A stretch of DNA of 64,000 nucleotides, taken from assembly GCA_964017185.1 (NCBI GenBank), contig OZ024880.1, positions 34,438,329-34,502,328 of the forward strand, in the 5' to 3' direction. Shown here one piece after another: positions 2,760 through 54,058 of this stretch. The notes under the pieces are model-generated. The model had not been told where the DNA came from and searched no databases. It saw only the letters and a program-made list of their open reading frames with translations. Made by a program: the position numbers and the translations under genes. The DNA comes from Rugalucina vietnamica (Eukaryota > Mollusca > Bivalvia > Lucinida > Lucinidae). Positions within the stretch are counted from its first letter, which is position 1; each line of letters opens with the position of its first letter.

Positions 2760-3480
2760 CTGTGAAAACTAAACAAATGAAAAACACATGCGCATATTCC
2801 TTTTTAGGCATATTGTGCAATGTGTTTAATTTTAAAGTAGGAAAATAATCAGCTGTATATTTGCTTTAACAATAACCCGATTTAAGCTGTTCATTATAGA
2901 AATAATCGAACCTATGAAATAGTTTCAATTATTTTAAATATTACATGTAAAGCGATTCACAAAGTAATAATTCGAAAGTATGCGTCTCAGTATGGCAAAG
3001 TCTATATCACGTTTGCCATTGTAGACTTTTAAAGGCTAATCCGCCGAGTCTGATTAACGATGCGAATGCGATCATGTTGATATGGCAAATGATCGCAAAA
3101 CGACAGCCCTTATAAGGATGATATGTGGATGGAAAGCCTGATCACACTCGCCTTTTTTGTGATCATTGTTCACTGTTTGCAATGTTTCATTTCCTGGTGT
3201 AGTTTAAAACAAACGGAAATACATACTTACCATTGTGACTGTGCAAATGGCCGTAGTTTACAAAGTATTCAATTAGTTTCCCCGTTCAGCTTTTCTTTAC
3301 TATTTGTAAAAGACAGTATTGTTATTAACACAATCACACCTTGCAGGTGTACTCCACGTGGTATTATTTTAAACAAAAAGCATCATGATGATTGACACTT
3401 AAGAAATGCCTAAGGCCAGTAGAAACCCCTGCGCTAATATAAGCAAACCTTTGTTAGGCGAGGAAAATCGCACGGTCTAA
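2760..3480. other. No gene recognised
   Basis: AT-rich. A plus-strand ORF at 3123-3395 starts with a hydrophobic segment, but has no homologue I recognise and no coding-like neighbours. It may hold upstream exons of the receptor gene that I could not identify. Confidence 0.4.
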
Positions 3481-3925
3481 TCGCTTTAGACGTTCATCTA
3501 GTATCATATGGAAAGGTAAAAGTATGCAATGATCAGAAAAATTGTGCTACTGTATCAGAAAGAAATTCCCACTCCAAAAACCGAGATAGGAAAATAAATT
3601 GACAACGGTAATTATAGTAAGAGAAAATATCGTATTCCAAGTTAACAGCTATTTCCTAAAACGGCGGCCACTAAGTTACCCGAACTTAACAAAAAATATA
3701 AAAACGTCCGATGCAAACATCACAGAAATTCAGCATCAGAACAAAATAATTAGAAACCACAACCGAAGTATCGCCTTTGAACGAAGAGTAATATGAAATT
3801 ACTAGAGGGTCTTAAACCGGTTTTATTATGCCCTGACCTCGCCCCCAGCTTCTGCAGTGATTCACAACATTTAGTGGTTAATCTCAAACTAGTCGACTAA
3901 TCATCAAGGACAAATGTATGAGTAA
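3480..3925 (-). mobile_element. Diverged Naiad PLE 3'-terminal fragment
   Basis: Matches, with many substitutions, the reverse-oriented Naiad 3' region at 48,302-48,720: the AAAGGTAAAAGTA start, CCCACTCCAAAAACCGAG, the AAAGAGCAGCTATTT-like run, and the CAGCTTCTGCAGTG and CTAACTAGTC-like motifs occur in the same order. No coding part is left. Confidence 0.65.
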
Positions 3926-4004
3926 TAATAGACCCAATGTGAAGAATAAATAAAGGAGGACTCGCAGAGTCAATATATCATACCAAATACGTACATGTAT
4001 TACA

Positions 4005-4950
4005 ATCGCATTATTGAACAGTGGACTTAACAATGGCGAATCACAAAGAGGTCAAACGCTATTATTTTAAACACGACCATGTCTAAGCTTTACAGGAAAA
4101 TAATGATTTTATTCATTAATTTCCTAATTGGAGATAACTCTGTTGATATGATACCTCCCGCATTAGACAATGGCGAACCAAACTCGACAATGGTAAATCA
4201 GATAGTCTATAGCCAAAAAGGAACCATTTTAAGGAAGAATTTTTGCACACAAATAATGCGAAACTACATGATGTTCGATTATATTGTGTTAATTTGCTTT
4301 GGTGCTTTGCGTTCGCTGTCATCAGCAAATGCCTTAACGGAAAGGTTTATTATACCGATTTAAGAATGTCTTATTGCTTTAACGAATCTATGTAAGCCTA
4401 AACGCAAGAGGGTTAAACCACGACTTGCATAAATATTAGTTATGCATTGACCAAAACAAATGGTTGCCAGACAAGCCCTTCAAAGGTAGATTATCAGTAC
4501 TTTGTGCACATTCTTTTCACTACACAAGGTATGATTCGCTATTGTCGAATTTACCTGTACATTTTCCACGCTTATATCTACCTTCAGTGTCAAAACTTTT
4601 ATAAAAAAAAATAAAGGCACACTGCATAACTAGGGGTATAAGGCATAAAAGTAATGCAAAAATTGGTCATAAGCAAATGCTTAAAAGCGAGGTAAGAAAC
4701 ATATTCACTTTTTTTTGTCGAACTATAAACTATGTATCTTAGTTGAGGGGTCAAGCATTTCAGCAACCCTGATGATATTTTCCGGTGGAATTTTGACTCC
4801 ATTCTTTTACCAAACCTGAAGAAATCGATGAGAGTAAATGACCGAATTATTTAATGAATAATATTTTGTCAAAGTTTCAAGAAATTCTGCAATATCTCTA
4901 CGAGTGATTCGCTATTGTCGATGAGTCTCCATTGTCGAGTTCATTGTACG
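4005..4950. repeat. Possible foldback element with CAATGGCGAA / TTCGCTATTG ends
   Basis: ACAATGGCGAATCAC near 4031 is mirrored by GTGATTCGCTATTGTCGA near 4906. Further copies of CAATGG.GAA and its complement occur near 4160, 4190, 4540 and 4920. This looks like a non-autonomous element or palindromic repeat with short terminal inversions. ORFs inside (4079-4363, 4599-4802) are not recognisable. Confidence 0.35.
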
Positions 4951-11215: not shown

Positions 11216-11284
11216 CCAAAAACGAAAACACATACAGTGCAAAGATATAAAACAAAATAAAGTCCGATTCCACAATGTATTCAC

Positions 11285-11343
11285 TATTTAATTAATTCTC
11301 TACCGGTTTCACTGCTATTTTACAGATCATCAGGAGTTAAATA
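11285..11343 (-). ncRNA. Hammerhead ribozyme motif, type I, minus-strand copy
   Basis: Reverse complement of the copy at 11,528-11,586, with the same core: CTGATGA, a CTG/CAG stem II, GAAA, a minimal CCGG stem III, and GGTA before the expected cleavage site. The stem I halves TATTTAA and TTAAATA are both intact. Confidence 0.65.
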
Positions 11344-11527
11344 TGGCGTTGTTGCGTAGATACTAACTTCACTCAAAATTTTAAAACATATATTATATAC
11401 ATGTTAATTATATCAACCATGGTGCGCACTTTAGTACAAGGCGGTAAATCCTATATTGTATTGTATTGTACTGTTAATGACGTTACGGCCGTAACGTCGT
11501 TAAGTTAGTATCTACGCAACAACGCCA

Positions 11528-11586
11528 TATTTAACTCCTGATGATCTGTAAAATAGCAGTGAAACCGGTAGAGAATTAATTAAATA
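11528..11586 (+). ncRNA. Hammerhead ribozyme motif, type I, plus-strand copy
   Basis: Order seen: stem I 5' strand TATTTAA (11,528-34) plus CTC (35-37); core CTGATGA (38-44); stem II CTG...CAG (46-48/57-59) with a TAAAATAG loop and a U-U pair at its base; GAAA (61-64); minimal palindromic stem III around CCGG (65-68); TA (69-70) as the U-H cleavage site; stem I 3' strand GAG (71-73), a 6-nt bulge, then TTAAATA (80-86). All invariant core bases I know are present. The very short stem III suggests activity as a dimer, as reported for PLE and retrozyme hammerheads. Cleavage is not shown. Confidence 0.7.
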
Positions 11587-11960
11587 GTGAATACATTGTG
11601 GAATCGGACTTTATTTTGTTTTATATATATATATATATATACAAATACATATATGCGACAAGGATTGGGCTTAGGCAAAGCCTATCATTGCCCTCTCCCG
11701 TCGGTATTACAATTTACATTCATTATGAAAATCAATCCTACTATGCATAATAATATCTGTCATATACATTTTATATATACAATCAAAAGTACATGTTAAC
11801 TATGTGAACAGTATGGATAAGGCGAGAATTCATCTGGAACAGATTTTCAAGATCAGTCATAGCAAAGTTGATACACTTACATGTATTCACCGTGCTGGTA
11901 AAACTTAGGCTCGACAGTAATGCTAAAGCTCTGCTCCACAGGAGTTCGATCGTTATCCAT

Positions 11961-12023: not shown

Positions 12024-12549
12024 CCATGAGATCGCACTCCACGAGTGTTGTGATTTTTTTTTTGTTTGTTTTTGTTGTTGTTGTTTCTTCTACAGTGCGA
12101 GAGATAATCTGTATTTTAAGGCTACAAAGATGTATCATCACGTGAAAGAATTGTGTATAAATATTGTTTTATTTTATTTTTGGAATCCCAGGGAGAGAGC
12201 GTAATCTCTAGTCAGTTTCTGATAATGTACATGTTTATGTGCCGACCCACTCTCATGCCAAATAACTAGCAACAATGTAGGATAGTCAGTCACACAATTG
12301 TTAAGTTGTTCCATTCTCATTTTTGCACTATATGTACTTTAAGTTTAGAAAACACATTAACTGCCAGAAGATTTTTTTGATCATATTAATTGAAATGTGT
12401 GTTTTGGGTTTCGCAAAGTTTTTACCCCTAGGTGCGCGATCACGCCCTTCCTACTCCGATTTTGGTATTCCGTAAGGCCGAACAGAAACGACTTATACTA
12501 ATCACTTTCAAATAAAGTATGCCGTGCCACCTCACGTAGGGATGGTTGA

Positions 12550-13003
12550 GGTAGTACTACTATAAAAAATCCTACTAATGCAAAATCAGGTCATTTCACC
12601 AACCTGTCAAATTTTGTCTGGGCTAAATTCACTATTATGAACTGTAACATTCAGCGGACAAGAACATTACTTACCAGTAGCAGTCAAAAAACTATGGGGT
12701 TATGCGGCATTTTTTTTGAGCAAACTGTCATCCAATGTAAACAATGCTGGTCCGCAGTAAATTCCGAGCTGAGATTTTATTGGGCCATATGCAATATATT
12801 TTTTTCTCACTGGAGAGGTTGAAAATGGTGTAAGAAAATAATTTTATTCATTTTATTAAATACTTTGAATAGCTTTCCCAGAAATATTTCACTTTTACCA
12901 ATAACAATAATCAGCAGCCAGAAAAGTTTCATTGTGTGACAGAATGCTCTCCCCAAAAGAGGCGGCGCTTGCATAATGAGAAAATACTTATAGTAGTGCA
13001 ACC
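12550..13003. mobile_element. GGTAGTACTACTATAA-ended MITE, copy 1
   Basis: About 455 bp. The left end GGTAGTACTACTATAA is matched by the reverse complement of the right end (GGTTGCACTACTATAAG), a TIR of ~16 bp. Interior almost identical to copy 2 at 13,891-14,347. No coding capacity; the ORFs in it are chance frames. Superfamily not assigned. Confidence 0.75.
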
Positions 13004-13890
13004 TATACCAGCCCCTTTTTCTTTAAACTCCTATTCTTTCAAGTACAAATTTAACTCTACATCAAACAATATTCAAGACATACATTGATGCTGAGTAAGC
13101 TTGACCTTCTTTATCTTTGCGAAAATGAGCCACAAAGGCTTTCTGCGGCCAAATCTGATTTTGTCGCGATTTGAAGAAAAGTCATTTATTTGACCTCCTA
13201 TTATAGGAAAACACAAGTATTGAATGAATCCAGAGGTACTGAGGAGCTAACTACAGTCTATTTACCTTACAAAATGAGTATAACCAATGACAAGTAGCAA
13301 TTCTACTTGAAGCTATTCAATTTCTCCTATCTATACCCCCAAAATTAGCTAGAATATGATAATTTAGGCCTTTTATGGAAAATTCTCAACCATCTAGAGA
13401 CAAAATCTGCTTTTTCTATTCACAAGACCACAGCAATCAATTGTTTTAACTAAAAAGAAGCACTTGGAACATTTCTTGTGGCTATTTCAGCAAATTAAAC
13501 CCCTGCCGTGTATAAATTTGTCCGTTCAGAACCCGATGTCTAGGAGAATGACGCTGTTAAAAGACATTTTCTTCATTATTCAAACAGTCCGGCCGGATAA
13601 AATTTAATGCGTTACTATGCTTTCATCAAGTTGGAGTACTATTCAACCAATTTCTTTGTCCCATTGCACTTGAAAAGGTGTATCAGAAGAAAATGTTACC
13701 CACCCCCCCAAAAATACATGGAAAATTCCCAAAGTCACAGAAAAAGCAAATTTAAGCCAAGTGTCAGGGTTTGAAATGAATTTCCATGCAGAACCAAATG
13801 TTTTCTTCAACACTGAGTGGAAGGGAATGCTGTAAGCAGAAAAAAATCAGTCCTTCTGGCAAAATGAAGGTACATCCTACTTTCAGTTTA
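13004..13890. other. No gene recognised between the MITE copies
   Basis: About 890 bp of AT-rich DNA with a C-rich spot near 13,700. No ORF or repeat recognised. Confidence 0.5.
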
Positions 13891-14347
13891 GGTAGTACTA
13901 CTATAAAAAAATCCCATTGCTACTAATGCAAAATCAGGTCATTTCACCAACCTGTCAAATTTTGTCTGGGCTAAATTCACTATTATGAACTGTAACATTC
14001 AGCGGACAAGAACATTACTTACCAGTAGCAGTCAAAAATCTATGGGGCTATGCGGCATTTTTTTGAGCAAACTGTCATCCAATGTAAACAATGCTGGTCC
14101 GCAGTAAATTCCGAGCTGAGATTTTATTGGGCCATATGCAATATGTTTTTCTCACTGGAGAGGTTGAAAATGGTGTAAGAAAATAATTTTATTTATTTTA
14201 TTAAATACTTTGAATAGCTTTCCCAGAAATATTTCACTTTTACCAATAACAATAATCAGCAGCCAGAAAAGTTTCATTGTGTGACAGAATGCTCTCCCCA
14301 AAAGAGGCGGCGCTTGCATAATGAGTAAATATTTATAGTAGTGCAAC
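13891..14347. mobile_element. GGTAGTACTACTATAA-ended MITE, copy 2
   Basis: Direct-orientation twin of 12,550-13,003, differing by a few substitutions and short indels (an extra CCATTG near the left end). Same TIRs. The flanks of the two copies differ, so they are separate insertions rather than a tandem duplication. Confidence 0.75.
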
Positions 14348-14710
14348 CTTGAATGAATTTCTAGACAAGACAAGAAGGCAGAAACTATACAGTTACTGTT
14401 CATTTTAAGTATGTAACGGTAAGTTGTGTCAGTTATTGAATTATTGATCATGACTGTGTGTCATGAACTTAACGGACTAGTCAATCAGAAAGTCAGTCGA
14501 CGCAGGTATCAAGCGGATTATGTCCCTTAGAATTTAGATTTATAGTTTTTGTACTTGTTTCATGTATCTGTGTATTTAATTTAAGCCCTGTCTCAGTTTA
14601 TATATATATCGCATTCATTAAAACCGAGCTGTAAGACTTTCTATCTGTTACTGTTAGGTCAAATTTTAGGAGTTATATTCAATACTTTTAGCAGCTTGTA
14701 ACGGATATAA
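14348..14710. other. No gene recognised; possible 5' region of the Naiad element
   Basis: The 5' end of the PLE could not be placed. The endonuclease frame is closed by a TAA at 14,708-14,710. Confidence 0.4.
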
Positions 14711-15685
14711 GTTTACAAAATAAATAGATATAATACCAAGAAGTGCAACTGTTGCAATCATTTATGCTCTAAGACTACTATCACTTCATCTGTGAATGGT
14801 AGGACATTTTCAGTGGTTAATGATTCTGATTTAGACTGAAAATCAATGGATCTTGTATATGTTCTTACTTGAAATACAAACAATTGTAGGATGCAATATG
14901 TTGGACAAACTTGTCGAACTTTGCAAAAACGATTTGGTGAGGACTATCGTAGAATCAGAAAGCCCAAAAATAATGATACCTTTCTGTACCAGCATTTTAA
15001 GCGCACTGGTCATTCTCCCAATAATGTTATAGTTCAACCAGTGGAGAAAATCTCATATGATGAAAATTCTTCTGTTAGATTCAAAAACATCAAATGATTT
15101 GAAACTGAACTTAAATGGATTAAATTATTGCAAACACCCTTTCCACTGGGATTTAACGACAACATTTACCATGAGGGTAATATTTCCAAAATGCCCGATT
15201 TTGATGTACTTACACTTTCAGAGTCTAGTAAACGTAAATCTAGATCTCATGGTATACGGAAAAAGGGTAATGGCAAACGTAAACGGTGCGCTACAATGAA
15301 ATTGAATACTTCCCTTAATGATTTAGCTGTTAAACTAAGGATTCACGGTCGACATCCAATGCTGTCTTATCTTAGTTCTCTACCTATTGCTGTATTACGT
15401 TCCTTGGACACAGAGGCTAATAGATTTTACGATAGAAATCATCAAATGTATGACGCTGCACTGTTAACAAGATGTTATACTCAGCATGCTCTTCGTCCAT
15501 TTATCGATTCCGAATCTAATCACATTAGAAGTTTTATTAAAATTCCTTTCATTAATAAAGGAATTGACTTTATTGATTTACCAAGCATATTCCAGGATAA
15601 ATCAGTGATACAGTCTATACCTACGTACTTCCAAAATTCAGAACCTCCTATTATTTGTTACAAATATCAGAAATACTATTTTTAA
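14711..15685 (+). CDS. Naiad N-terminal part: GIY-YIG endonuclease and linker, with in-frame TGAs
   Basis: One frame, read through three TGAs (14,837, 14,870, 15,095). It begins NTKKCNCCNHLC, then SVNGRTF and DLVYVLT-[TGA]-NTNNC, then MQYVGQTCRTLQKRFGEDY (the GIY-YIG core with catalytic-type Arg), YQHFKRTGH (the His pair of the CCHH motif) and WIKLLQTPFPLGFNDNIYHE. The linker includes HGRHPMLSYLSSLP and FINKGIDFIDLPSIF. The frame is lost at ~15,675 and continues in another frame as TIFNFNKLVSDLDIHANTPK. The frame stays open over 960 bp apart from the TGAs, so TGA is unlike random decay. The endonuclease should nick DNA for target-primed reverse transcription. Confidence 0.8.
14837..14839 (+). 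other. In-frame TGA at a conserved Cys position (candidate Sec)
   Basis: Context DSDLD-[TGA]-KSMDLVYV. Related PLEs carry Cys here (the C in a D.DC.S.N.VY pattern, from memory of the family). A TGC or TGT to TGA change is consistent with selenocysteine recoding. Confidence 0.6.
14870..14872 (+). other. In-frame TGA at first Cys of the CCHH motif (candidate Sec)
   Basis: Context YVLT-[TGA]-NTNNCRMQYVG. PLE endonucleases have Y.I.C..C upstream of YVGQT. The second Cys and both His residues (YQHFKRTGH) are kept, only the first Cys is TGA. Confidence 0.65.
15095..15097 (+). other. In-frame TGA in the endonuclease C-terminal part
   Basis: Context RFKNIK-[TGA]-FETELKWIKLL. I do not remember a conserved Cys here; Arg or His is more usual, so this may be an ordinary CGA to TGA nonsense change. 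It separates this TGA from the other three. Confidence 0.5.
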
Positions 15686-15687
15686 TT

Positions 15688-17318
15688 TCAATAAACTTGT
15701 TTCTGATCTCGATATCCATGCTAATACTCCTAAGTCTTGAGATTGTAAAGATTCTAAATTTGTTTATCAACCAGCCGGACATATAGTTACCGCAAACAAT
15801 GTTGTTGTTGTTTGTAGGCTTCACTACGTTAACACCTTAAAACAGGAGCTTGATGGTACCAGGGCTTATCTGGAGACAGATACTGATGAAATGTCTGTAG
15901 TTAATGCCCACTTAAACGATTTACCTGTTACGTTTTCTGTTTGTGTCAATGAAGACCAAGACAAACTTCCTACGATGTATTGGTTACCTAAGCTTCACAA
16001 AAGACCATACAAAGCTAGATTTATTGCAAATTCTAGCTCATGTACTACTACTGAACTTTCTAAATTATTAACTTCCTGTCTTACTGCTATCAAGTCTCAT
16101 GTTATAAGATACTGTGAGACAGTGTATGAAACTTCAAATAGAAATTGGTTTTGGTCAATAAAAAATTCTGGTGAGGTGCTCAATAAATTGAAGTGTAGAG
16201 GGTTCCGTGCGACGAGCTTGTCCACATATGATTTTTCTACTCTGTATACAACTTTACCACATAATCTAATTAAAGAAAAACTTCTGGATAGAGTGGACCT
16301 TCAAAAGGGCATTAAAAACTATGGTTCACTTTATTTGGCATGTAATGACAGAAAGGCTTTTTTCACTTCCTCTGACCAAAGTCGGTATACACTTTGGTCA
16401 TGTCAGAATGTGTGCGACGCCTTATCCTATCTCCTGGATAATATTCATATTAGATTTGGGACCAAGTTATACAGACAAATTGTTGGAATTCCGATGGGTA
16501 CAAATTGCGCACCTCTCGTAGCTGATTTATTTTTATACTGCTACGAAAGAGATTTCATGAATTCTCTTAATCATGATAATCAAGCTGATGTTATCGAGGC
16601 TTTTAATTCCACTTCTAGGTACCTTGATGACCTTTTGAACATTGACAGCCCTTATTTTGAAGGTATGGTCAATCAAATTTATCCATCTGAACTACAGTTG
16701 AACAAAGCCAATATCTCGGATACCGAAGCCCCCTTTTTAGATCTACATCTTTCTGTTGCAAATGGATTTGTTTCTTCTAAAATTTATGATAAGCGCGATG
16801 ACTTTGATTTTGATATAGTAAATTTTCCGTTTTTGGATGGTGACGTCCCTCGTCGTGCTTCTTATGGTGTATACATTTTGCAACTTATTAGGTTTGCTAG
16901 AGTCTGCAATCATGTTACAGACTTCAACGCTCGAAATAAATGTTTAACGGCCAAACTTCTCCAACAGGGCTATCGGTATCATAAACTTCGAAAAACCTTT
17001 TCTAAATTTTATCGTAGACACTATGAATTGATTTCCAAATATAATGTTGGGTTAAAGACGCTTTTAAGTGAGGGCCTTTCGGAACCAGAATTTTATGGTG
17101 ACTTGGTTTGCAAATTTAAGGAACTTATAGGAAGTAATGAGTTTTCTTTTCAGTTTAGAAAAATCATAACACGTTACAGACGTATAGGTTATAACTTGAA
17201 TGTTATGCGACAGTCTGCATGCTTAGTTTTTAACCCAATCACGGTTGATAACTACGCTGCCTTCTTTAATTGCACGCCGTTGGGTCGGGCGTCAGACTCT
17301 ATGATGGCCCCGACTTAA
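15688..17318 (+). CDS. Naiad linker end and reverse transcriptase
   Basis: Open from 15,741 to the stop at 17,318 and continuous with the linker frame upstream through the TGA at 15,738. Numbering from the Met at 15,891: LPKLHKRPYKARFIANSS (~33-50), RT motif A TYDFSTLYT with Asp 114, motif B GIPMGTNCAP (199-208), catalytic YLDD (244-247), then APFLDLHLS and a ~185-residue thumb/C-terminal region ending ASDSMMAPT. Catalytic residues are intact. The region between PAGHIVT and NNVVVVC lacks the segment present in copy D (KYRFP to VPADKA), probably including the insertion-in-fingers part, so this copy is likely inactive. Confidence 0.85.
15738..15740 (+). other. In-frame TGA at first position of the CxC motif (candidate Sec)
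   Basis: Context ANTPKS-[TGA]-DCKDSKFVYQPAGH. Naiad-type elements have a CxC linker motif here; the second Cys is kept and the first is TGA, exactly in frame with the 15,891 Met. The strongest single case for recoding. Confidence 0.7.
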
Positions 17319-17940
17319 AGCTATTCATTTTAGTTGGTTGGGGCCTGAGCTTCTTGTCTGTTGCTTGGCCCACCGGGGTCCAACTGATGTTTTTCTTTTG
17401 CTCCGGAGTTAGTAAGTTATTCGGCGCCCAGGGATCTCCATCGTCGGGCAGCTTACTGAATCTGTGAGTCCTGGTTTTTTATTCATCAGGATGTTTATCA
17501 TGATTTATTTGTTTGTTCTTGATGATTCATTGACTAGTTAGAGATTCACCACGAGGACCGAAGAACTAACTATATGTTATGAACCACTGCAGAAGCTGAG
17601 AGTGAGGTTATGGCCATGTAAAATCGATTTAAACCCGCCAGTAACTTTGTGTTACTGATCGTTCCAAGTCGATACTTCTGTGGTGGTTCTTTTTGTTTTA
17701 TGTCTTGGTGTTTATAATATTTTTGTGCTGTTGGCGCCTTATGTGTGTTTTCATATTTTTAGTTAAGTTAAGGTAATTGAGTGGCCACCTATTGGGAAAA
17801 TAGCTGCTCATTCGGCTTACGAAATGTTTTCATGGTATAAGTACCTGATTGTTAGTTTGGTTTTCTCCCACCTCGGTTTTTGGAGTGGGAATCTTTTTCT
17901 GATTGCGCCTTTTCCTGATCTTTGCTTACTTAAACCTTTC
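17319..17940 (+). other. Naiad 3' UTR and conserved 3' terminus
   Basis: Noncoding. The last ~150 bases (TTTTCTCCCACCTCGGTTTT, GGAGTGGGAATCTTTTTCTG, CCTGATCTTTGC) recur at 50,380-50,471, 51,740-51,830 and 53,960-54,058, and inverted at 44,473, 48,302 and 48,921, always ending at CTTGTACCTTT or a close variant. This fixes the element's 3' end. Confidence 0.8.
17521..17583 (+). promoter_or_regulatory. Candidate SECIS-like hairpin in the Naiad 3' UTR (unproven)
   Basis: ATGA (17,522-25) precedes, and TGAA (17,580-83) follows, a hairpin: TAGTTAG (17,535-41) pairs with CTAACTA (17,566-72), with outer CAT/ATG pairs. The sequence is conserved in another copy (48,660-48,730, inverted). The apical loop has CACC rather than the usual AA, and helix II is interrupted, so this only partly fits a SECIS. 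Confidence 0.25.
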
Positions 17941-18054
17941 TGTATTTTGATTTATTATTATCATTTTATTAATTTCGTTATTCTCTTATTTTATGTAAGT
18001 CGGTTAGTCTGTTTAATGAATATAAAAACCTGGTTTTGAAGATCACAATTTTTC

Positions 18055-19509
18055 TTAATATGACAAGTTGGAGTTTCCAAAAAGAAGATCATGTACACAT
18101 ACAGTTATCTTACTATATATATTTGGCTTTGTTATCAGTGAATTTATCAGATTTATTCTTTCATTTGAATATTTAGGGCAGTTGAAGATAAAGTGGTCTA
18201 TGGTTTCTGGACAGTTACAGTGGGTACAATTTGGTGAGTCTATTAAATGGTAATCATGCAAGTCTTGATTGAGTTGGCTTTTCCCATTTCTAAGCTGACA
18301 TAGAATAATTTTATCCTTTCTTGTACCGGGTGAATAATAGTTGGAAGGTGTTGGGGCTTGCTTTTTTAATTCTTGTTTACATGAGTGTAAGGAAGTACAT
18401 TTAGCTAAGTTAGGATTAAGGTTATTCCATAAATTAATTGTTGCTGGGAAATAAGATTTTTGAAATGAGGTTGAGTTTGGTTTAGGGTATCTTAAGTTAT
18501 TATTTCTTAAAGAATAAGGTACAGCATGATCATTATAGCTGTCTAATATATTGTTTATATATGTTGGAGTTTCTAAATTTAGGATTTTAAAAAAATAAGT
18601 CAATTTACTGTCCTGTCTACCTTTTGATAGCGAGGTCCATCCAAGTTTATCATAAAGAATATCGTGGGAGGTACCCCGGCGTAATCCTGTTATGATTCGG
18701 GCAGCGTCAAGTTGAATGGATTCCAGAAGTTCTGCCTCGTCTTTGTCACAGTTATCCCAGACAATTCTGCTGTACTCCAGTACGGGTCGAATATAACAGG
18801 TATAGAAACGAGTTAAAGATTTCCTGTCCAGGTCATACTTCAACATTCTTAAGATATTTAACCTTTTTGATGTTTTTTCATAGATGCGATTGATATGATC
18901 CCCCCAGGTTTCATCATATAATAATGTCAGACCCAGATGTGTATGCTGAGTTTCATCTTGAAGTTCAATATTATTAAATTTGACTTTAGGGCATTCCCTA
19001 ATCCGTTTGCGAGTAAATGTCATAGATTTTGTTTTTGTGGGGTTAAGTATGATACACCATGACTCCGCAAATTGGGCAATCTTTTTCAAATCTTCTTCAA
19101 GTAATTTGATTGAATTGTTGTTTTCGAAGACAGTGAATAACGATGTATCGTCTGCGAAGAGTCGAATGTTACAATTAATATCTTTAACAATGTCATTGAT
19201 ATAAATAAGAAATAAGTAGGGACCCAGCACTGAGCCTTGAGGAACTCCAGCTGATGTGTTTTCCCAGTTAGATCTTAAGCCCTCAGTTATCACACGTTGT
19301 TTTCTATTTGACAATTAGCTTTTGAACCAAGAAAATAAGTAGTTAGTATTGCCATATTTTTTAAGCTTAAATAGGAGACCGTCATGCCAAACCTTGTCAA
19401 ATGCTTTACTTATGTCGCAAATTTCTTTCTGTTTGTCTAAACTTTCTATTATTTTATGATATATTTCAAGGAGTTGATTGACTGTGGAAACCTTTTGGAC
19501 GAAAGCCAC
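18055..19509 (-). pseudogene. LINE reverse transcriptase with C-terminal zinc knuckle
   Basis: 19,509-19,315 reads STVNQLLEIYHKIIESLDKQ, CDISKAFDKVWHDGLLFKLK and SWFKS, then a TAA where Tyr is expected (SWFKS-stop-LSNRKQRV). The same frame continues for 419 residues with GVPQGSVLGP, catalytic FADD (~residues 53-56), RPVLEYSRIVW and a CTHCNC...HFIFNC knuckle near the end. A short deletion before CDISKAF removes part of the motif. One nonsense codon splits an otherwise open RT, so decay is moderate. Confidence 0.88.
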
Positions 19510-44293: not shown

Positions 44294-44735
44294 TCGATGG
44301 TGTAAACGAGAGGGTGTTGAGGATAATGCTCTTAAAGAATGGAAAAGAAGTATCTTCACTATCGTGGATAAACGTATATAGTTTTATTCACAAAATACTA
44401 ATCTTTTACCTCCTAAACCCAAATCGTAATTAAGGCATTTGAAGCAGGGTATCCAAGAATTTCACAGAAAGGTACAAGTAGGCAAAGATCAGGAAAAGGC
44501 GCAATCAGAAAAAGATTCCCACTCCAAAAGCCGAGGTGGGAAAAACTAACCATATCGTAAGCCGAAAGAGCAGCTATTTTCCCAATAGGTGGTCACTCAG
44601 TTACCTAAACTTAACTAAAATATGAAAACATACATAAGGCGCCAACAGCACAAAAATTGAAACACCAAGACATAAAACAAAAAGAACCACCACAGAGGTA
44701 TCGCCTTACACAAATGAAGGCCAAGACAAACTTCC
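44294..44735. mobile_element. Naiad mosaic fragment
   Basis: Three joined pieces: 44,294-44,472 plus-strand, fingers region (WCKREGVEDNALKEWKRSIF, NTNLLPP, LKQGIQEFHRK, with two TAA/TAG stops); 44,473-44,700 inverted 3' terminus starting AGGTACAAGTAGGC; 44,708-44,733 plus-strand GAAGGCCAAGACAAACTTCC (the GQDKLPTM region). The internal-to-inverted-terminus junction matches those at 48,301 and 50,472. Confidence 0.75.
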
Positions 44736-44739
44736 TACG

Positions 44740-45905
44740 ATATTTTGCATTTGATATTTGAATTTTGTTTTTACATAAATGTTTATTGAGTAGTCCTTCA
44801 CGTTTAAAGCAAATTTTGTAAAAATCACTTTATCCGTTTGGTTGCTATAGCAACATAAAGGGTAAATTTTCGAAAAAAATATTCAAAAATCTTCTTCTCA
44901 GAAGCCGTATGTAGGAAGCAGGTGAAATTGAGCATTACATGCTTATGACATTAGCCTGTACAAAGTTTGTGTTTTTATTGTCTTTGTCCAACTACTTTGG
45001 TTGCTATGATAACTTGAAGTTGCCATTGACTTATAAGGCAAACAGTGAAAATTTGCAATTTATGCCGTTTCATTGAGGGTATTGAAATTTTGTTTTTACA
45101 TAAATGTTTATTGAGTAGTCCTCCCCGTTTTAGGCAACTTTTGTCGAAATCGCTTTATCCGTTTGGTTGCTATAGCAACGTAAAGGGTAAATTGTCGAAA
45201 AAATATTCAAACATTTTCTTCTCAGAAGCTGTAAGGCGTATGGAGATGAAACTTTGCATATATGCTTATGATATTAGCCTCTACAAAGTTTATGTTTTTT
45301 ATTGTCATTGTCCCATTACTTTGGTTGCTTTGGCAACTTAAAGTTTCCACTGACTTATATGACGAAAAGCGGAAAGTTGCAATTTCTGCCATTTCGCTTG
45401 AAATATTTGAGTTTTGTTTTTACGTAAATGTTTGTTGACTAGTCCTCCACAATGTTGGCAATTTTTGTCATAATTGCATAATTATTTTGGTTGCTATAGC
45501 AACGTAAGGGTGAAATTTATGAAAAATTATTTAAAAATCTTCTCAAAGGCTGTAAGAAGGATAACGCTGAAACTTTAAATGTATGCTTATGGCATTAACC
45601 TCTACAGAGTTTGTGTTTTTATGTTGTCCTTGTCCAACTACTTTGGTTGCTTTGGCAACTTGAAGTTTCCATTGTCTTATACGGGGAAAAGTTGGAATTG
45701 TCATTTTCTGTTGCTTCAAAGGGGATATTTGAATTTTATTTTTACATGAACATTTGTTCAGTGGCCCTCCATATTTTTATGTGACTTTTGTTTAAATTGC
45801 GTAATTTAATAGGTTGCTGTCAACATAAAGGATGAATTTTTGAAAAAATTCAAACAACTTCTTTTCTGAGCCATGAGGCGGATTCTCTCCAAATTTCACA
45901 TATAC
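44740..45905. repeat. Tandem ~310-bp array with GTTGCTATAGCAAC palindromes
   Basis: About three and a half units, each with TTTTTACATAAATGTTTATT, a GGTTGCTATAGCAACGTAAA palindrome, CTTCTCAGAAGC, TATGCTTATG.CATTAGCC and a second GGTTGCTTTGGCAACTT. Decays to the right, then runs into (CCGT)n at 45,925. Confidence 0.85.
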
Positions 45906-45919
45906 ATGTGGTGTCTGTC

Positions 45920-47475
45920 TGTACGTCCGTCCGTCCGTCCGTTCACATTTTCAAACTTGAATATCTCTAAGACAACAAGGCCAATCGTGATCAAATTTTA
46001 TCATAAGCATCATTGAGGAGGGGGAAAGGTTGCATAAGGTTTTGGGCCAGGTCGGATCAGAACTCAGGTTTCCATGGCAACAGATAGATCCCAAAGACAA
46101 ACAATAGGAAAAACATAAAAAAATCTTCTCCGAAACCACAAGGCCCAGAGCCTTCATATTTTGTGTGTAGCATTGTATAGTAGTCCTCTCTATATATCCT
46201 GCCAACCGTGCCCCCCAGTGTCCAAACAGGTGCCGCCCCAAGGGCATCATTGGCAAAACCAAAAAAATCTTCTTCGTGGTCCTCTTTATATATCCTGCCA
46301 ACCATACCCCTGGGGTCAAAAATGGCCCCGTCCCGGGGAGTCATTAGCTCCCATAGACATATAATGGGAAAAACATAAAAAAAATCTTCTTCTTCGAAAC
46401 CACAAGACCCAGAGCTTTCATATTTTGTGTGTAGCAATGTATAGTTGTCCTCTTTATGAATCCTGCCAACTGTGCCCCTGGGGTCCATACGGGCCCCGCC
46501 CCGGGGTTGTCATGGGAAAACATAAAAAATCTCCCTCTCCGAAACCACAAGGCCCAGAGCTTTTATATTTTGTATGTAGCAATGTGTAGTGGTCCTCTTA
46601 ATGAATCCTGCCAACTGTGCCCCTGGAGTCAAAAATGGCCCCGCCCAGGGGCTCCCATAGACATACAATGGAAAAAAAACCATAAAATATCTTCTCCGCC
46701 ACCACAAGGCCCAGAGCTTTCATATTTTGTGTGTAGCAATGTATTGTGGTCCTCTTTATAAATCCTGCCAACCGTGCCGCTGGGGTACATACAGGCCCAA
46801 CCCTGGGGGGTAATGGGAAAAACATAACAAAACTTCTTCGAAACCACAAGGCCCAGAGCTTTCATATTTTGTGTGCAGCAATGTATTGTGGTCCTCTTTA
46901 TATATCCTGCTAACCGTGGCCCTGGGGTCCATACAGGCCCCGCCCTGGGGGCATTATTATCTGCCATAGGCTTGCAATGGAAAATACATAAAAAATCTTC
47001 TTCTCTGAAACCACAACTGCTACAGCCAATGCTTCTATATTTGGTATGCAGCATTGTTATGTGGAGCTTTACATAAATCTTGTCAAGCATGCCCCTGGGG
47101 TCAGAAATGGCCGCACCCCGGGGGGTCAAAACCTCCCTTAGACTTTATTGAAGAAAAAAAAAACACATAAAAATCTTCTTCTCCAAAACCTTATTGCACA
47201 GAGCTTTCATATGTTGTGTGGACTAATGTATAATACTCTCCTTTATAAATGCTGTCAACGGTACCCCTGGGGCCCATACAGGCCATGCCCAAGCATGTCA
47301 TTATCTACCATAGACTTATAATGGAAATACATGTAATAATCTTCTCTGCAACAGCATGACACAAAGCTTGTATATTTGATTTACAACAATGTCATGCGGA
47401 GCTCTACATAAATCCTGCCAATCATGCCCCTGGGGTCAAATATGGCCCTACCGCGGAGGTCATTATAGGACCCTG
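45920..47475. repeat. Tandem ~190-bp CCTGGGGTCC array
   Basis: About eight units: ATCCTGCCAACCGTGCCCCT, GGGGTCCATACAGGCCCCGC, CATTAGCTCCCATAGAC, AATGGGAAAAACATAAAAAA, AAACCACAAGGCCCAGAGC, TTTCATATTTTGTGTGTAGC. Begins with a (TCCG)n leader and CAAACTTGAATATCTCTAAG. Many mutually overlapping ORFs of both strands here are artefacts of periodicity. Confidence 0.9.
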
Positions 47476-47514
47476 ACCTTGTTAGATGATTTTTTTATGT
47501 GAACCAAAATGGCA

Positions 47515-47775
47515 GACAAGAGGATACACAATCCAGACAAGAGCTATTATGCTGATGTAGATAGGGTTTCAAGGTCACATGACCAAGATGCCACCATACC
47601 CATATATGGTAAAAATCCCAATTACTTTGTCACAATCCAGACAAGAGCTATTCTGCTGATGTAAATAAGGTTTAAAGGGCACATGGCCAAGATGCCACCA
47701 TACCCATATATGGTAAAAATCCCAATTACTTTGTCCAGTGAGTGTACTTGTTGACTCTCAGGTGAGCGATCGTTG
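47515..47775. repeat. ~105-bp tandem duplication and CAGGTGAGC terminus
   Basis: CACAATCCAGACAAGAGCTA to CCCAATTACTTTGTC occurs at ~47,529 and again at ~47,631. Followed by GACTCTCAGGTGAGCGATCG, the terminal module of this repeat superfamily. Probably the right end of the element containing the two arrays to the left. Confidence 0.75.
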
Positions 47776-47790
47776 CCCTTGTGCTACTTG

Positions 47791-48301
47791 TTTCACTTCC
47801 TCTGACCAAAGTCGGTATACACTGTGGTCATGTCAGAATATGTGCGACGCCTTATCCTATCTCCTGGATAATATTTATATTAGATTTGGGACCAAGTTAT
47901 ACAGACAAATTGTTGGAATTCCGATGGGTACAAATTGCGCACCTCTCGTAGCTGATTATTTTTATACTGCTACGAAAGAGATTTCATGGATTCTCTTAAC
48001 CATGATAATCAAGCTGATGTTATCGAGGCTTTTAATTCTACTTCTAGATACCTCGATGATCTTTTGAACATTGACAACCCTTATTTTGAAGGTATGGTCA
48101 ATCAAATTCATCCACCTGAACTACGTTTCGCAACCTATTAGGTTTGCTAGAGTCTGCAATCATGTTACAGACTTCAACGCTCGAAATAAATGTTTAATGT
48201 CCAAACTTCTCCAACAGGGCTATCGGTAACATAACCTTCGAAAAACCTTTTCTAAATTTTATCGTAGACACTATGAATTGATTTCCAAATATAATGTTGG
48301 G
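47791..48301 (+). pseudogene. Naiad RT fragment B
   Basis: Starts inside FFTSSDQSRYTLWSCQN, has GIPMGTNCAPLV and YLDDLLNID, a 1-nt deletion near 47,960 (ADYF for ADLFLY), an internal deletion near 48,125 and ends at ISKYNVGLK. Joined at 48,301/48,302 to an inverted 3' terminus. Confidence 0.82.
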
Positions 48302-48920
48302 TTAAAAAGGTAAAAGTAGGCAAAGATCAGGAAAAGGCGCAATCAGCAAAAGATTCCCACTCCAAAAACCCGAGGTGTGAAAAAAAAACTAACAATCAGG
48401 TACTTATACCATGAAAACACTTCGTAAGCCGAAAGAGCAGCTATTTTCCCAATAGGTGTCCAATCAGTTACCTTAACTTAACTAAAAATATGATCACATA
48501 CATAAGGCGCCAACAGCACAAAAATATTAAACACCAAGACATAAAACAAAAAGAACCACCACAGAAGTATCGACTTGGAACGATCAGTAACAAAAAGTTA
48601 CTGGCGGGCTTAAATCGATTTTACACGGCCGTAACCTCACCCTCAGCTTCTGCAGTGGTTCATAACATTTAGTTAGTTCTTCGGTCCTCGTGGTGAATCT
48701 CTAACTAGTCAATGAATCATCAAGAGCAAACAAATAAATCAAGATAAACATCCTGATGAATCAAAAACCAGGACTCACAGATTCAGTAAGCTGCCCGACG
48801 ATGGAGATCCCTGGGCGCCGAATAACTTACTATGTCCGGAGCAAAAGAAAACCATCAGTTGGACCCCAGTGAGCCAAGCAACAGACAAGAAACTCCGGCC
48901 CCAACCAACTAAAATGAATA
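48302..48920 (-). mobile_element. Naiad 3' UTR/terminus, inverted
   Basis: Full reverse complement of 17,325-17,940, from AAGGTAAAAGTAGGCAAAGA to CCAACCAACTAAAATGAATA. Includes the conserved hairpin region (48,660-48,730). Directly followed by another inverted terminus. Confidence 0.82.
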
Positions 48921-50205
48921 AAAAGGTACAGATAGGCAAAGATCAGGGAAAGGCGCAATCAGAGAAATATTCTCACTCCAAAAACCGAGGTGGGAAAATA
49001 ACAAAGTAACAATCAGGTACTTATACCATAAAAACATTTCGTAAGCCGAATGAGCAGCTATTTTCCCAATAGGTGGCCACTCAGTTACCTTAACTTAACT
49101 AAAATATGAAAACATACATAAGGCGCCAACAGCACAAAAAATAACTTACTAACTCCGAAGCAAAAGAAAAACATCAATTGGACCCCGGTGGGCCAAGCAA
49201 CAGACAAGAAGCTCCGGCCCCAACCAACTAAATTGAATAGCTTTAAGTCGGGGCCATCATAGAGTCTGACGCCCGACCCACCGGCGTGCAATTAAAGAAG
49301 GCAGCATAGTTATCAACCATGATTGGGTTAAAAACTAAGCATGCAGACTGTCGCATAACATTCAAGTTATAACCTATACGTCTGTAACGTGTTATGATTT
49401 TTCTAAACTGAAAAAGAAAAATCATTACTTCCTATAAGTTTCTTAAATTTGTAAACCAAGTCACCATAAAATTCTGGTTCCGAAAGGCCCTCACTTAAAA
49501 GCGTCTTTAACCCAACATTATATTTGGAAATCAATTCATAGTGTCTACGATAAAATTTAGAAAAGGTTTTTCGAAGTTTATGATACCGATAGCCCTGTTG
49601 GAGAAGTTTGGCCGTTAAACATTTATTTCGAGCGTTGAAGTCTGTAACATGATTGCAGACTCTAGCAAACCTAATAAGTTGCGAAATGTATACACCATAA
49701 GAAGCACGACGAGGAACGTCACCATCCAAAAACGGAAAATTTACTATATCAAAATCAAAGTCATCGCGCTTATCATAAATTTTAGAAGAAACAAATCCAT
49801 TTGCAACAGAAAGATGTAGATCTAAAAAGGGGGCTTCGGTATCCGAGATATTGGTTTTATTCAACTGTAGTTCAGATGGATAAAATTGATTGACCATACC
49901 TTCAAAATAAGGGTTGTCAATGTTCAAATGGTCATCGAAGTACCTAGAAGTGGAATTAAAAGCCTCGATAACGTCAGCTTGATTATCATGGTTAAGAGAA
50001 TCCATGAAATCTCTTTCGTAGCAGTATAAAAATAAATCAGCTACGAGAGGTGCGCAATTTGTACCCATCGGAATTCCAACAATTTGTCTGTATAACTTGG
50101 TCCCAAATCTAATATAAATATTATCCAGGAGATAGGATAAGGCATCGCACACATTCTGACATGACCAGAGTGTATATCGACTTTGGTCAGAGGAAGTAAA
50201 AAAAG
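48921..50205 (-). mobile_element. Naiad copy C: RT C-terminal half plus 3' terminus
   Basis: Minus strand. RT from KAFFTSSDQ (50,205) through GIPMGTNCAP and the SKIYDKRDDFDFD region to ASDSMMAPT (49,247), with the frame changing at ~49,415, then a 3' UTR with an internal deletion near 49,140, ending at 48,921. The catalytic motif reads YFDD followed by His, rather than YLDDLL, an unusual substitution. No TGA codons in this part. Confidence 0.85.
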
Positions 50206-50471
50206 CCTTCTGTGGTGGTTCTTTTTGTTTTATGTCTTGGTGTTTAAATTTTTTTTGTGCTGTTGGCGCCTTATGTATGTTTTCATATTTTTAGTTAAGT
50301 TAAGGTAACTGAGTGGCCACCTATTGGGAAAATAGCTGCTCATTCGGCTTACGATATGTTTCATGGTATGGGTACCTGACTGTTAGTTTGGTTTTTTCCC
50401 ACCTCGGTTTTTGGAGTGGGAATCTTTTTCTGATTGCGCCTTTTCCTGATCTTTGCCTACTTGTACCTTTT
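50206..50471 (+). mobile_element. Naiad 3' terminus, plus strand
   Basis: Matches 17,680-17,940: TGTGGTGGTTCTTTTTGTTT, CCCACCTCGGTTTTTGGAGT, CCTGATCTTTGCCTACTTGT. Both ends are joined to minus-strand RT sequence. Confidence 0.82.
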
Positions 50472-51389
50472 TTGTCATTACATGCCAAATAAAGTGAACC
50501 ATAGTTTTTTAATGCCCTTTTGAATGTCCACTCTATCAAATCCAGAAGTTTTTTCTTTTATTAGATTATGTGGTAATGTTGTATACAGAGTAGAAAAATC
50601 ATATGTGGACAAGCTCGTCACACGGAACCCTCTACACTTCAATTTATTGAGCACCTCACCAGAATTTTTATTTGAAGTTTCATACACTGTCTGCCAGTAT
50701 CTTATAACATGAGATTTAATAGCAGTAAGACAGGAAGTTAATAATTTAGAAAGTTCAGTAGTAGTACAAGAGCTAGAATTTGCAATAAATCTAGCTTTGT
50801 ATGGTCTTTTGTGAAGCTTAGGTAACCAATACATCGTAGGAAGCTTGTCTTGGCCTTCATTGACACAAACAGAAAACTTAACAGGTAAATCGTTTAAATG
50901 GGCATTAACAACAGACATTTCATCAGTATCTGTCTCCAGATAAGCCCTGGTACCATCAAGCTCCTGTTTTAAGGTGTTAACGTAGTGAAGCCTACAAACA
51001 ACAACAACATTGTTTGCGGCTTTGTCTGCCGGTACCAAGACATACTTTCTGTGAAATTCTTGGATTCCCTGCTTCAAACGCCTAAATGACGATTTATGTT
51101 TAGGAGGTAAAAGATTAGTATTTTGTGAATAAAACTTTATACGTTTATCCACGATAGTGAAGATACTTCTTTTCCATTCTTTAAGAGCATTATCCTCAAC
51201 ACCCTCTCGTTTACACCATCGACTACCGAAATCATTCAATGCAGATGCAATCTCCTCTCTACATTTGTCGAAATTGATGTAGGAAGGGAATCTATATTTC
51301 GGACCTTTAGAAACAATTTTGCGAATTCTAGAATCCGAAATTATCTTTAAATTTACAGTAACTATATGTCCGGCTGGTTGATAAACAAA
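50472..51389 (-). pseudogene. Naiad copy D: fingers and first half of RT
   Basis: About 305 residues open. Starts at KFVYQPAGHIVT just after the CxC site, then KIISDSRIRKIVSKGPKYRF, WCKREGVEDNALKEW, FHRKYVLVPADKAANNVVVV, LPKLHKRPYKARFIANSS and STYDFSTLYT (motif A), then a frameshift after IKEK. It keeps the ~115-residue segment deleted in the 15.7-kb copy. The 5' junction with 51,390 shows a CTAAA microhomology. Confidence 0.85.
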
Positions 51390-51537
51390 TTTTAGGTCGG
51401 GACCATCATAGAGTCTGACGCCCGACCCACCGGCGTGCAACTAAAGAAGGTAGCATAGTTATCAAACAATGATTGGGTTAAAAACTAAGCATGCATACTG
51501 TCGCATAACATTCAAGTTATAACCTATACGTCTGTAA
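51390..51537 (-). pseudogene. Naiad copy E: RT C-terminal tail
   Basis: Minus strand: GTTACAGACGTATAGG to the RASDSMM end, with stop at the fusion. Fused head-to-tail to copy D, so an ORF starting MHAGGSGVRLYDG is a frame-shifted chimera. At 51,537 it abuts a plus-strand terminus. Confidence 0.75.
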
Positions 51538-51830
51538 CTGTGTGTTACTGATCGTTCCAAGTCGATACTTCTGTGTTGGTTCTTTTTGTTTTATGTCTTG
51601 GTGTTTGAATTTTTGTGCTGTTGGCGCCTTATGTGTGTTTCATATTTTTAGTCAAGTCAAGGTAACTGAGTGCCCACCTATTGGGAAAATTGCAGCTCAT
51701 TCGACTTACGAAATGTTTTCTTGGTATCAGTACCTGATTGTTGGTTTGGTTTTTTCCCACCTCGGTTTTTGGAGTGGGAATGTTTTTCTGATTGCACTTT
51801 TTCCTGATCTTTGCCTTCTTGTACCTTCTT
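51538..51830 (+). mobile_element. Naiad 3' terminus, plus strand
   Basis: GTTACTGATCGTTCCAAGTC to TTTGCCTTCTTGTACCTTC, as at 17,655-17,940. Confidence 0.8.
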
Positions 51831-52400
51831 ATATGATTGAAGTCAATGACTACATCGAAAAATCTGGGTATTTTTTTTTTCAAAAAGCTGAGAAAAATAG
51901 GTCCCACGATTTCAACCCGGAAGAAACTGAAAAATGACTCACTTTCTCTGAGCTGACCACTTATTTCACAATCATGTATACACAAATCCATGTATTTGCA
52001 ACATATTCAACAGGCCCATGATATAGCATGCTAAAAATGTATTATTGTTGACAAAAATAAATAAATTGTATGGTTTTTTTATACAGGTAAATCTTCAAAC
52101 ATGCATATACATTGACCACACATAAGTCCTTAATGCGTCAGTTCAGTGTAAATCAATTGAGGCAATGCCGTAAACCTTCCTTTAAGTATGATTATTCACT
52201 GTCTGTCCCATTTGCACAAAATTTCATCTGTTAATTCACCAAAAGGGACACCGCCATCGCCAGCACTGTCAAGCTACTGCTCAACACTGAAATAACAAGA
52301 AAATGGAAGTTAGCTTTTAATTGATGCGTTATCTCGTGTCGCTTTTGTACATGAAGCTATTTAATTCGTTATATATGGAGCCTCCTTGTGTAGTGGCATT
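51831..52400. other. No gene recognised
   Basis: AT-rich. No supported feature. Confidence 0.4.
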
Positions 52401-53915
52401 GAAAGTTTGATCGCGAAATCTGGGTCACATGACCAAGATGGCCGCCACGCCCATATATGGTAAAAAGCACTCAAAAATCTTTTTCTCCAGAACCGGCGGG
52501 CCGATTTTCATGAAACTTGCTGTTTAGCATTTGGGACTTCAGCCCATCATAATTTGATAAAATGATGACTCTATGAAGACCTTGACCTATTTTACGACAA
52601 GGTCAATTTTGGAAACATATGCTTTTACAAGGGAAAAAGTCAAAACTATAGAATTTTTGAAAACTATTGCAGCCTGAGACCTGAAAAGTGGTAGATGCAA
52701 ACAACTAACGGAGAAGATGAAGGTATGTGATTAAGTTAGGTCAAGGTCATATCTTGACCTTGGCCAGTCTGTTGTCCATACACACTTTTTCAAAAATCTT
52801 CTTCTCTGGAACTGCTTGGTCAATCAAAGTGAAATTTTATGTGGAGCATCCATGGGTAGGGGAGACGAAAGTTTGATCGCGAAATTTAGGTCACATGACC
52901 AAGATGGCCGCCACGCCTATATATAATAAAAACACTCAAAAATCTTCTTCTCCAAAACCGTTCGGTCGATTTTCATGAAACTTGGTATGTAGCATTTGGG
53001 ACTTCAGCCCATCATAGTTTGATCAAATGATGACCCTAGGATGACCATGACCTATTTCACGGCAATGTCAATTTTGGAAACATAGGCTTTTACATGGGAA
53101 AAAGTGAAAACTATGGATTTTGTGAAAGCTATTGCAGCCTGAGGCCTGAAAAGTGGTAGATGCAAACAACTAATGGAGTAGATGAAGCCAAAGGTATGTG
53201 ATTAATTTAGGTCAAGGTCATCTCTTGACCTTGGCCTGTCTGTCGTCCATACACACTTTTCAAAGATCTTCTTCTCTGAAACTGCTTGGTTAATCAGTGA
53301 AATTTTATGTGGAGCATAAGTGGGTAGGGGAGACGAAAGTTTGATCGCGAAATCTAGGTCACATGACCAAGATGGCCGTCACGCCCATATATGGTAAAAA
53401 ACACTCAAAAATCTTCTTCTCCAGAACCGGCAGGCCGATTTTCATAAAACTTGGTATGTAGCATTTGGAACTCTAGCCCATCATAGTTTGTTGAAATGAT
53501 GACCCTAGGATGACCTTGACCTATTTTACGGCAGGGTCAATTTTGGAAACATAGGCTTTTACATGGGAAAAGGCGAAAACAATGGATATTTTAGAAACTG
53601 TTGCAGCCTGAGACCCGACAGTTGCTAGATGCAGACAACTTATGGCGTCAATGAAGGTAAGTAATTAATGAAGGCCAAGGTCATTTCTTGACCTTGACCC
53701 AAGGTCATTTAAATATCAAAATTAAAATTATGGTTTTCTCAGAAATCACTGGGTTTGGAAACTATTGCAGCCTGAGACCTGAAACTTTGCAGATGCATAC
53801 AACTTATCAAGTCAATAAAGGTGTGTGAGTATTCAAGGTCAAGGTCATTTCATAATGACTTAATACTCCAAGATCAGGCTTCAGGTGAGCGTTCTCAGGA
53901 CCAATGGTCCTCTGG
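52401..53915. repeat. Tandem ~465-bp array with CAGGTGAGC terminus
   Basis: Units start at ~52,401, 52,866 and 53,335 (GAAAGTTTGATCGCGAAAT, CACATGACCAAGATGGCCGC, CCAGAACCGGCGGGCCGATT, GATGACC..GACCTTGACCTAT), with a fourth partial unit. Ends GGCTTCAGGTGAGCGTTCTC then AGGACCAATGGTCCTCTGG. Noncoding. Confidence 0.88.
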
Positions 53916-53937
53916 TTACATGTTTGTTACTATTTTA

Positions 53938-54058
53938 TTACATGTTTTCTTGGTATCAGTACCTGATTGTTGGTTTGGTTTTTTCCCACCTTAGTTTTTG
54001 GAGTGGGAATCTTTTTCTGATTGCACTTTTCCTGATCTTTGCCTACTTGTACCTTTTC
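53938..54058 (+). mobile_element. Solo Naiad 3' terminus
   Basis: ACATGTTTTCTTGGTATCAG to CTACTTGTACCTTTTC: only the last ~120 bp of the element, immediately after the array end. Confidence 0.8.

Follow-up and report, generated by a model that had tools for sequence, protein, structure and literature searches.

The window analyzed herein is a stretch of 64,000 nucleotides (C12:34438329-34502328) from the genome of Rugalucina vietnamica, and it carries a damaged member of a repeated retrotransposon family along with several other pieces of that family (Table 1). As the intact reference for alignment of this focal copy, we used an element found elsewhere in the genome (L034) that is 4,585 bases long, has 369-base pseudo-LTRs (pLTRs) at both ends that are 100% identical, and carries one open reading frame (ORF) of 1,101 residues from stop to stop, or 1,077 residues from the first ATG. 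The focal copy retains pieces of this ORF, corresponding to an endonuclease, a linker, and a reverse transcriptase (RT), as well as a SECIS element and the 3′ pLTR, and its alignment with L034 reveals that it lacks both the 5′ pLTR and the first part of the ORF. The original prediction set the beginning of the element at 14711, but similarity to intact copies begins at 14732. The alignment falls into two BLAST pieces, between which 332 positions of the element have no match and which share seven window bases (15790-15796), and further deletions of 5 and 1 bases are present near 16290 and 16318. Because it is truncated at its 5′ end and carries deletions, the focal copy is a dead member of this repeated retrotransposon family.

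Table 1. Features of the putative Naiad element and its relatives in the window
Feature	Position	Strand	Evidence or remark
Old pLTR copy	3511..3975	-	Shares ~70% identity with the 3′ end of the focal copy
Focal copy of the putative Naiad	14732..17939	+	~97% match to L034 element positions 1019-4582, in two pieces
TGA no. 1 (D-U-KS), family-wide	14837..14839	+	TGA in 14/14 copies
TGA no. 2 (LT-U-NTNNC), presumed first residue of C..C pair	14870..14872	+	TGA in 15/15 copies
Private TGA, Arg in relatives: nonsense, not Sec	15095..15097	+	CGA 14, AGA 6, TGA 1 (n=21)
Junction of frameshifting 11-base deletion in the focal copy	15665..15666	+	Alignment with L034
TGA no. 3 (KS-U-DC), presumed first residue of linker CxC	15738..15740	+	TGA 27/28, TGG 1/28
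Junction where the focal copy has lost ~339 bases in frame	15790..15796	+	Alignment with L034
SECIS, overlaps last ORF codons	17293..17360	+	Rfam RF00031 (SECIS_1), 40.6 bits
TAA stop, inside A-rich apical motif of SECIS	17316..17318	+	TAA in 38/38 copies
3′ pLTR	17574..17939	+	Corresponds to L034 element bases 1-366
Structured RNA in pLTR, with two palindromes and two hairpins besides a long outer stem	17581..17690	+	Fold, covariation
Palindrome A of pLTR RNA	17610..17617	+	8 bases; five different perfect versions among copies
Palindrome B of pLTR RNA	17621..17630	+	10 bases; three different perfect versions among copies
Weak type-P1 twister matches	17626..17689; 48553..48616	+; -	Rfam, ~23 bits
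Cluster of truncated and inverted same-family pieces	44464..54056		Similarity to focal copy
Second copy: RT end and SECIS (49201-49268)	49140..50213	-	97% identical to focal copy
Further piece with linker stretch lost from the focal copy	50469..51393	-	Alignment with L034

The frame that first drew attention to this locus had been described as open for approximately 1 kb except for TGA codons, and this description holds: in the frame spanning 14711-15685, the only stops are TGAs at 14837, 14870, and 15095, and neither TAA nor TAG occurs ahead of the frameshift. From 14735 to 15664, the coding frame contains three TGAs and no other stop, and the other two frames contain 9 and 45 stops. The frameshift is likewise present, and alignment with L034 reveals that it is caused by the 11-base deletion at about 15666 in the focal copy, which rules out programmed frameshifting. 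Four TGAs had been noted in all. Three of them share this frame, and the one at 15738 lies in the next frame, which runs on to the TAA at 17316-17318. Only three of the four are common to the family, and the original prediction erred in grouping the remaining one with them. The TGA at 15095 is private to the focal copy, with an Arg codon in 20 of 21 copies, and therefore a fourth selenocysteine (Sec) at this site is ruled out.

The status of the remaining TGAs was assessed by searching the genome (1.09 Gb in 47 contigs) with ORF queries in which TGA was read as Cys. Exactly three in-frame TGAs are present in 43 of 43 scored copies from the full ORF search (one also has a TAA), and exactly two in 119 of 119 scored copies from the search with the endonuclease part (one also has a TAG). 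These are the best-matching 43 of 33,817 and 119 of 2,944 first-look candidates, respectively, and hence are neither random nor independent samples. Since the queries carried Cys at the TGA columns, Cys-bearing copies should have scored higher, and yet not one scored copy in either set lacks TGA.

The genome searches report the number of TGAs per copy rather than their places, and codons were thus tabulated by column from fetched copies, with the repeated loci L001, L003, and L004 removed and array units counted singly. This tabulation returns TGA 14/14, 15/15, and 27/28 times at the three columns, with TGG as the one departure at the third. L062, one of the places fetched after the genome search based on L031 (see below), has kept all three TGAs despite frameshifts. 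The TGAs belong to the family and not to the focal copy alone. A reading of the focal stretch as a random pseudogene with chance TGAs would fit its truncation, its deletions, and the one TGA in four that is private, but the other three are shared by the family, and we give this explanation no credence.

The three UGAs correspond to residues 157, 168, and 461 of the L034 frame when counted from stop to stop. Around the first two, L034 reads D-U-K-S-M-D-L-V-Y-V-L-T-U-N-T-N-N-C-R-M-Q-Y-V-G-Q-T, in which we take LVYVLT and QYVGQT to be the GIY- and YIG-like motifs of an endonuclease. The second UGA is preceded by the GIY-like motif and followed by the YIG-like motif. By eye, these motifs are located ahead of GIPMGTNCAP...YLDD, such that the endonuclease is N-terminal to the RT within one ORF. 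If U is replaced by C, then U168-x4-C173...H209-x5-H215 and the U-D-C at 461-463 fit CCHH and CxC patterns, which presumably represent the endonuclease CCHH site and the linker CxC motif. We also presume that all three UGA columns are occupied by Cys in related elements. A Cys-bearing relative with the endonuclease was not found among viral contigs, prokaryote genome contigs, plasmids, or in the same genome by using L031 (see below) as a guide. Pfam returned no GIY-YIG or RT domain match, and sequence searches of the PDB yielded nothing useful.

Perhaps the UGAs might serve as regulated stops, or be read through without Sec, to give separate N-terminal, endonuclease, and RT products by a process such as internal initiation. 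Indeed, beyond the third UGA the RT piece stays open for 640 residues in 66 of the 82 copies scored, as such an arrangement would allow. However, the second UGA sits between the GIY- and YIG-like motifs, and so no endonuclease can be made without reading through it. A SECIS element that scores above the cut-off is also unexpected under this scheme, which we regard as most improbable.

Such a SECIS is present. The original prediction proposed a search of the 3′ UTR, and the element found overlaps the end of the ORF and lies outside the interval that had been marked. It begins 23 bases upstream of the stop codon. The Rfam cut-off for RF00031 is 35 bits, and the matches in the focal copy, in the second copy of the window (39.0 bits, minus strand), and in L034 (39.0 bits) all exceed this value. 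Furthermore, the region 17289-17370 folds with a z-score of -3.88, and none of 200 shuffled sequences is as stable. Among 20 old 3′ ends, which are 78-87% identical to L034 over their 3′ part, nine have a whole but decayed SECIS, and Rfam lists three of these nine at 24-28 bits, below the cut-off. By eye and with pairs uncounted, the changes among aligned SECIS copies look like decay and not compensation.

The host genome carries two candidate genes for tRNA-Sec, each with the anticodon TCA (79 and 71 bits). A scan of the same genome for SECIS elements, in which 150 of 42,234 candidates were scored and which is therefore no measure of the number of Naiad SECIS elements, returned 16 matches over the cut-off. 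These have spans of 62-67 bases, and none has the 68-base span of the Naiad SECIS matches.

Evidence for protein-level selection comes from dN/dS ratios, which were calculated by Nei-Gojobori counts with TGA treated as a sense codon. L034 was compared with the arrays L032 and L033, the only other loci that are complete from the ATG. The ratio is 0.09-0.10 for the whole ORF, 0.06-0.15 ahead of the first UGA, 0.13-0.20 from the first to the third, and 0.06-0.07 beyond the third, and dS between the subfamilies is approximately 0.09. For 13 loci chosen as more diverged, the ratio for the whole stretch is 0.06-0.10 in 12. The outliers are L024, with 0.33 overall and 0.98 between the first and third UGAs on the basis of few changes, and L021, with 0.37 between the first and third UGAs. 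Pooled shared substitutions amount to nine changes in all, which are too few to use (ratios of 0.30 upstream of the UGAs, 0.52 between them, and 0 downstream). Purifying selection is thus evident before, between, and after the UGAs, which indicates that one frame has been selected as a protein while the UGAs stayed in place.

These ratios bear most directly on another explanation, wherein the TGAs are ordinary nonsense mutations in a master copy that is itself non-autonomous and has been multiplied in trans by other elements. Descent from one master predicts a number of TGAs common to all scored copies, as is observed, and many copies score alike. However, a dN/dS of approximately 0.09 between subfamilies, with low values on all sides of the UGAs, largely refutes this proposal, and a SECIS at the end of the ORF also speaks against it. 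In addition, the 1,077 codons of L034 hold only TGA and never TAA or TAG. By a rough single-change count that assumes ancestral Cys codons, three stop codons gained at random would have a probability of about 0.02 of all being TGA, and of about 0.0002 of all arising from Cys codons. We consider amplification of a nonsense-bearing master to be very unlikely.

Our preferred reading, to which we assign a probability of about 0.93, is that this lineage encodes a single selenoprotein of approximately 1,077 residues in which three UGAs are read as Sec. The original suggestion of a probable Naiad selenoprotein is supported in this respect. Neither of the two observations named in advance as contrary to it was made, since the three TGAs are not confined to the focal copy and a SECIS above the cut-off is present in three copies. 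Translation would start at the ATG, proceed through the UGAs at 157, 168, and 461, and end at the TAA. The SECIS that straddles this stop codon would recruit SBP2, eEFSec, and tRNA-Sec from the host, and the UGAs would be decoded as Sec, and not as some other residue, at positions otherwise occupied by Cys. One Sec would be located ahead of the GIY strand, another would open the C..C pair of the CCHH site, and the third would be the first residue of the linker CxC. The element might also derive some gain from Sec at these columns.

From its sequence features, the element is very probably a Penelope-like retroelement of the Naiad type, with an N-terminal GIY-YIG domain and with the selenoprotein as its product. 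Naiads of spiders and clams have reportedly come to encode, independently, selenoproteins with several Sec residues. Selenium-using elements have thus reportedly been encountered before, and the family described herein is a new, well supported case of such an element. The Naiads of Craig et al. 2021 (Mol Biol Evol 38:5005) are reported to combine a GIY-YIG domain N-terminal to the RT with pLTRs, copies in tandem and inverted arrangement, more than one in-frame UGA, and a lack of the canonical hammerhead, and the present family resembles them in each of these. Their linker CxC would have its counterpart here in U-D-C, if U stands for C. Specifically, identical pLTRs are observed in L034, a tandem unit in L032, and inverted pieces in the window. 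L032 (C15:40643000-40652900) is a tandem array with a spacing of 4,226 bases, and its units are 100% identical, which suggests a recent tandem insertion or amplification. L033 (C11:53183000-53192900) is a head-to-tail array of the whole element with the same spacing of 4,226 bases.

Canonical Penelope/Poseidon elements, as described in PMC11167929, also form tandem arrays with pLTRs and encode RT and GIY-YIG in one ORF. However, that account places the endonuclease at the C terminus and a hammerhead ribozyme at the pLTR/ORF, whereas the endonuclease motifs here are N-terminal and Rfam lists no hammerhead family for the focal copy and L034 at E values up to 10, or in a second search of the window at E values up to 5. 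Selenoprotein P (PMC8230778) likewise carries several Sec residues in one protein, but it is a host protein, whereas the putative multi-Sec protein here belongs to a mobile element. Among the papers that a literature search listed, none is, judging by titles and the beginnings of abstracts, about a Sec-coding transposon. Sequence evidence from dozens of copies and two subfamilies would now indicate that a mobile element depends on Sec decoding, and does so at presumed metal-binding positions. The reasons for which a retroelement might favor Sec can thereby be tested, as can a control of its movement by selenium status.

A second Naiad-like family is also represented in the host genome. L031 is a decayed Naiad-like RT (3246-3585, minus strand) on a contig binned as a Bathymodiolus symbiont, and this RT piece is most likely host DNA. 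Four places in the clam genome carry RT sequences that are 74-77% similar to it, and the two of these that were read (L057 and L058) are RT-only and decayed. Further places from the same search (L059-L061) lack the endonuclease.

The pLTR begins with a structured RNA of 110 bases, in the place that a hammerhead takes in canonical Penelope elements, and the region 17573-17695 folds with a z-score of -4.50. We evaluated this structure with 37 distinct pLTR variants (loci up to L056), from which the structure had itself been written down. Its pairs are kept in 95.1% of pair cells, and nine pairs are changed on both sides, a number that is reached by one of 500 shuffles. The covariation score is 0.163, compared with 0.087 +/- 0.005 for shuffled alignments and at most 0.062 when the structure is slid. 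In its number of further pair types, the structure is unexceptional, as 44 of 500 shuffles reach that number. When RNAalifold is left free, the outer stem and one hairpin are kept, and neither palindrome is drawn as a helix.

Two palindromes are conspicuous in this RNA, in that each varies in sequence and remains mostly perfect. Palindrome A is perfect in 25 of the 30 variants where the pattern found it and occurs as ACGGCCGT, ATGGCCAT, AGGGCCCT, AGGCGCCT, and AGGTACCT. Palindrome B is perfect in 29 of 35 variants, a count in which one row is a mis-located A, and occurs as AAACCGGTTT, AAATCGATTT, and AAACTAGTTT. The variants are often related by descent, and so there are fewer independent events than these counts. 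Neighboring bases covary, an observation for which a hairpin offers no explanation. It could reflect the pairing of two molecules, the pairing of two pLTRs in one transcript, or a palindrome that acts at the DNA level. Our guess is that the pLTR RNA pairs two RNAs. The covarying palindromes suggest that Naiads make use of a step at the RNA level, and no description of such a step was found in the literature examined, which comprised hammerhead papers without the main Naiad paper.

Two known ribozyme classes were considered for this RNA and rejected. The twister match in the focal pLTR scores 23.3 bits against a cut-off of 67.2, its GAGGG strand falls in an alignment gap, and twister is not listed among Rfam matches with E up to 1 in 20 older copies. 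The hammerhead core has the form CUGANGA ... GAAA. By eye, the junction topology of the pLTR RNA is similar to that of hammerheads and the core is not, its counterpart being mostly CUGAGGG or AUGAGGG, together with UAAAA. Copies with AACCGGTT also have, by eye, an imperfect helix at what would be stem III.

Small Penelope hammerhead variants are known to cleave as dimers (Lunse et al. 2017, cited in PMC10085705), and these too are structured RNAs of Penelope-like elements. The palindromes described here similarly suggest pairing between two molecules, although the canonical hammerhead core is missing. Amphibian hammerheads with a palindromic tetraloop also act as dimers (PMC7229834). An ambitious and rather unlikely extension of the selenoprotein reading is that movement of this retrotransposon is tied to the selenium supply of its host, with three Sec residues per protein and a stop codon placed inside the SECIS such that the two are inseparable. 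In this doubtful scheme, the palindromic pLTR RNA would replace the hammerhead by pairing two transcripts or two ends of one, perhaps as a new or strongly diverged ribozyme.

Several other features of the window deserve brief mention. Within the cluster of same-family pieces at 44464-54056, the majority of those extending to the 3′ end share one terminus (focal 17938-17943), and a break near the SECIS occurs in two pieces (focal 17319 and 17322). Directly downstream of the focal element, an open frame of 419 residues (18055-19314, minus strand) resembles the RT of a non-LTR (LINE) element by eye. Upstream of the focal element is a direct repeat of approximately 460 bases (12545-13004 and 13886-14349) whose copies are 96% identical. 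An inverted repeat at 11245-11372 and 11499-11626, which has 128-base arms that are 99% complementary and is located beside an (AT)n run, is perhaps a small inverted-repeat element.
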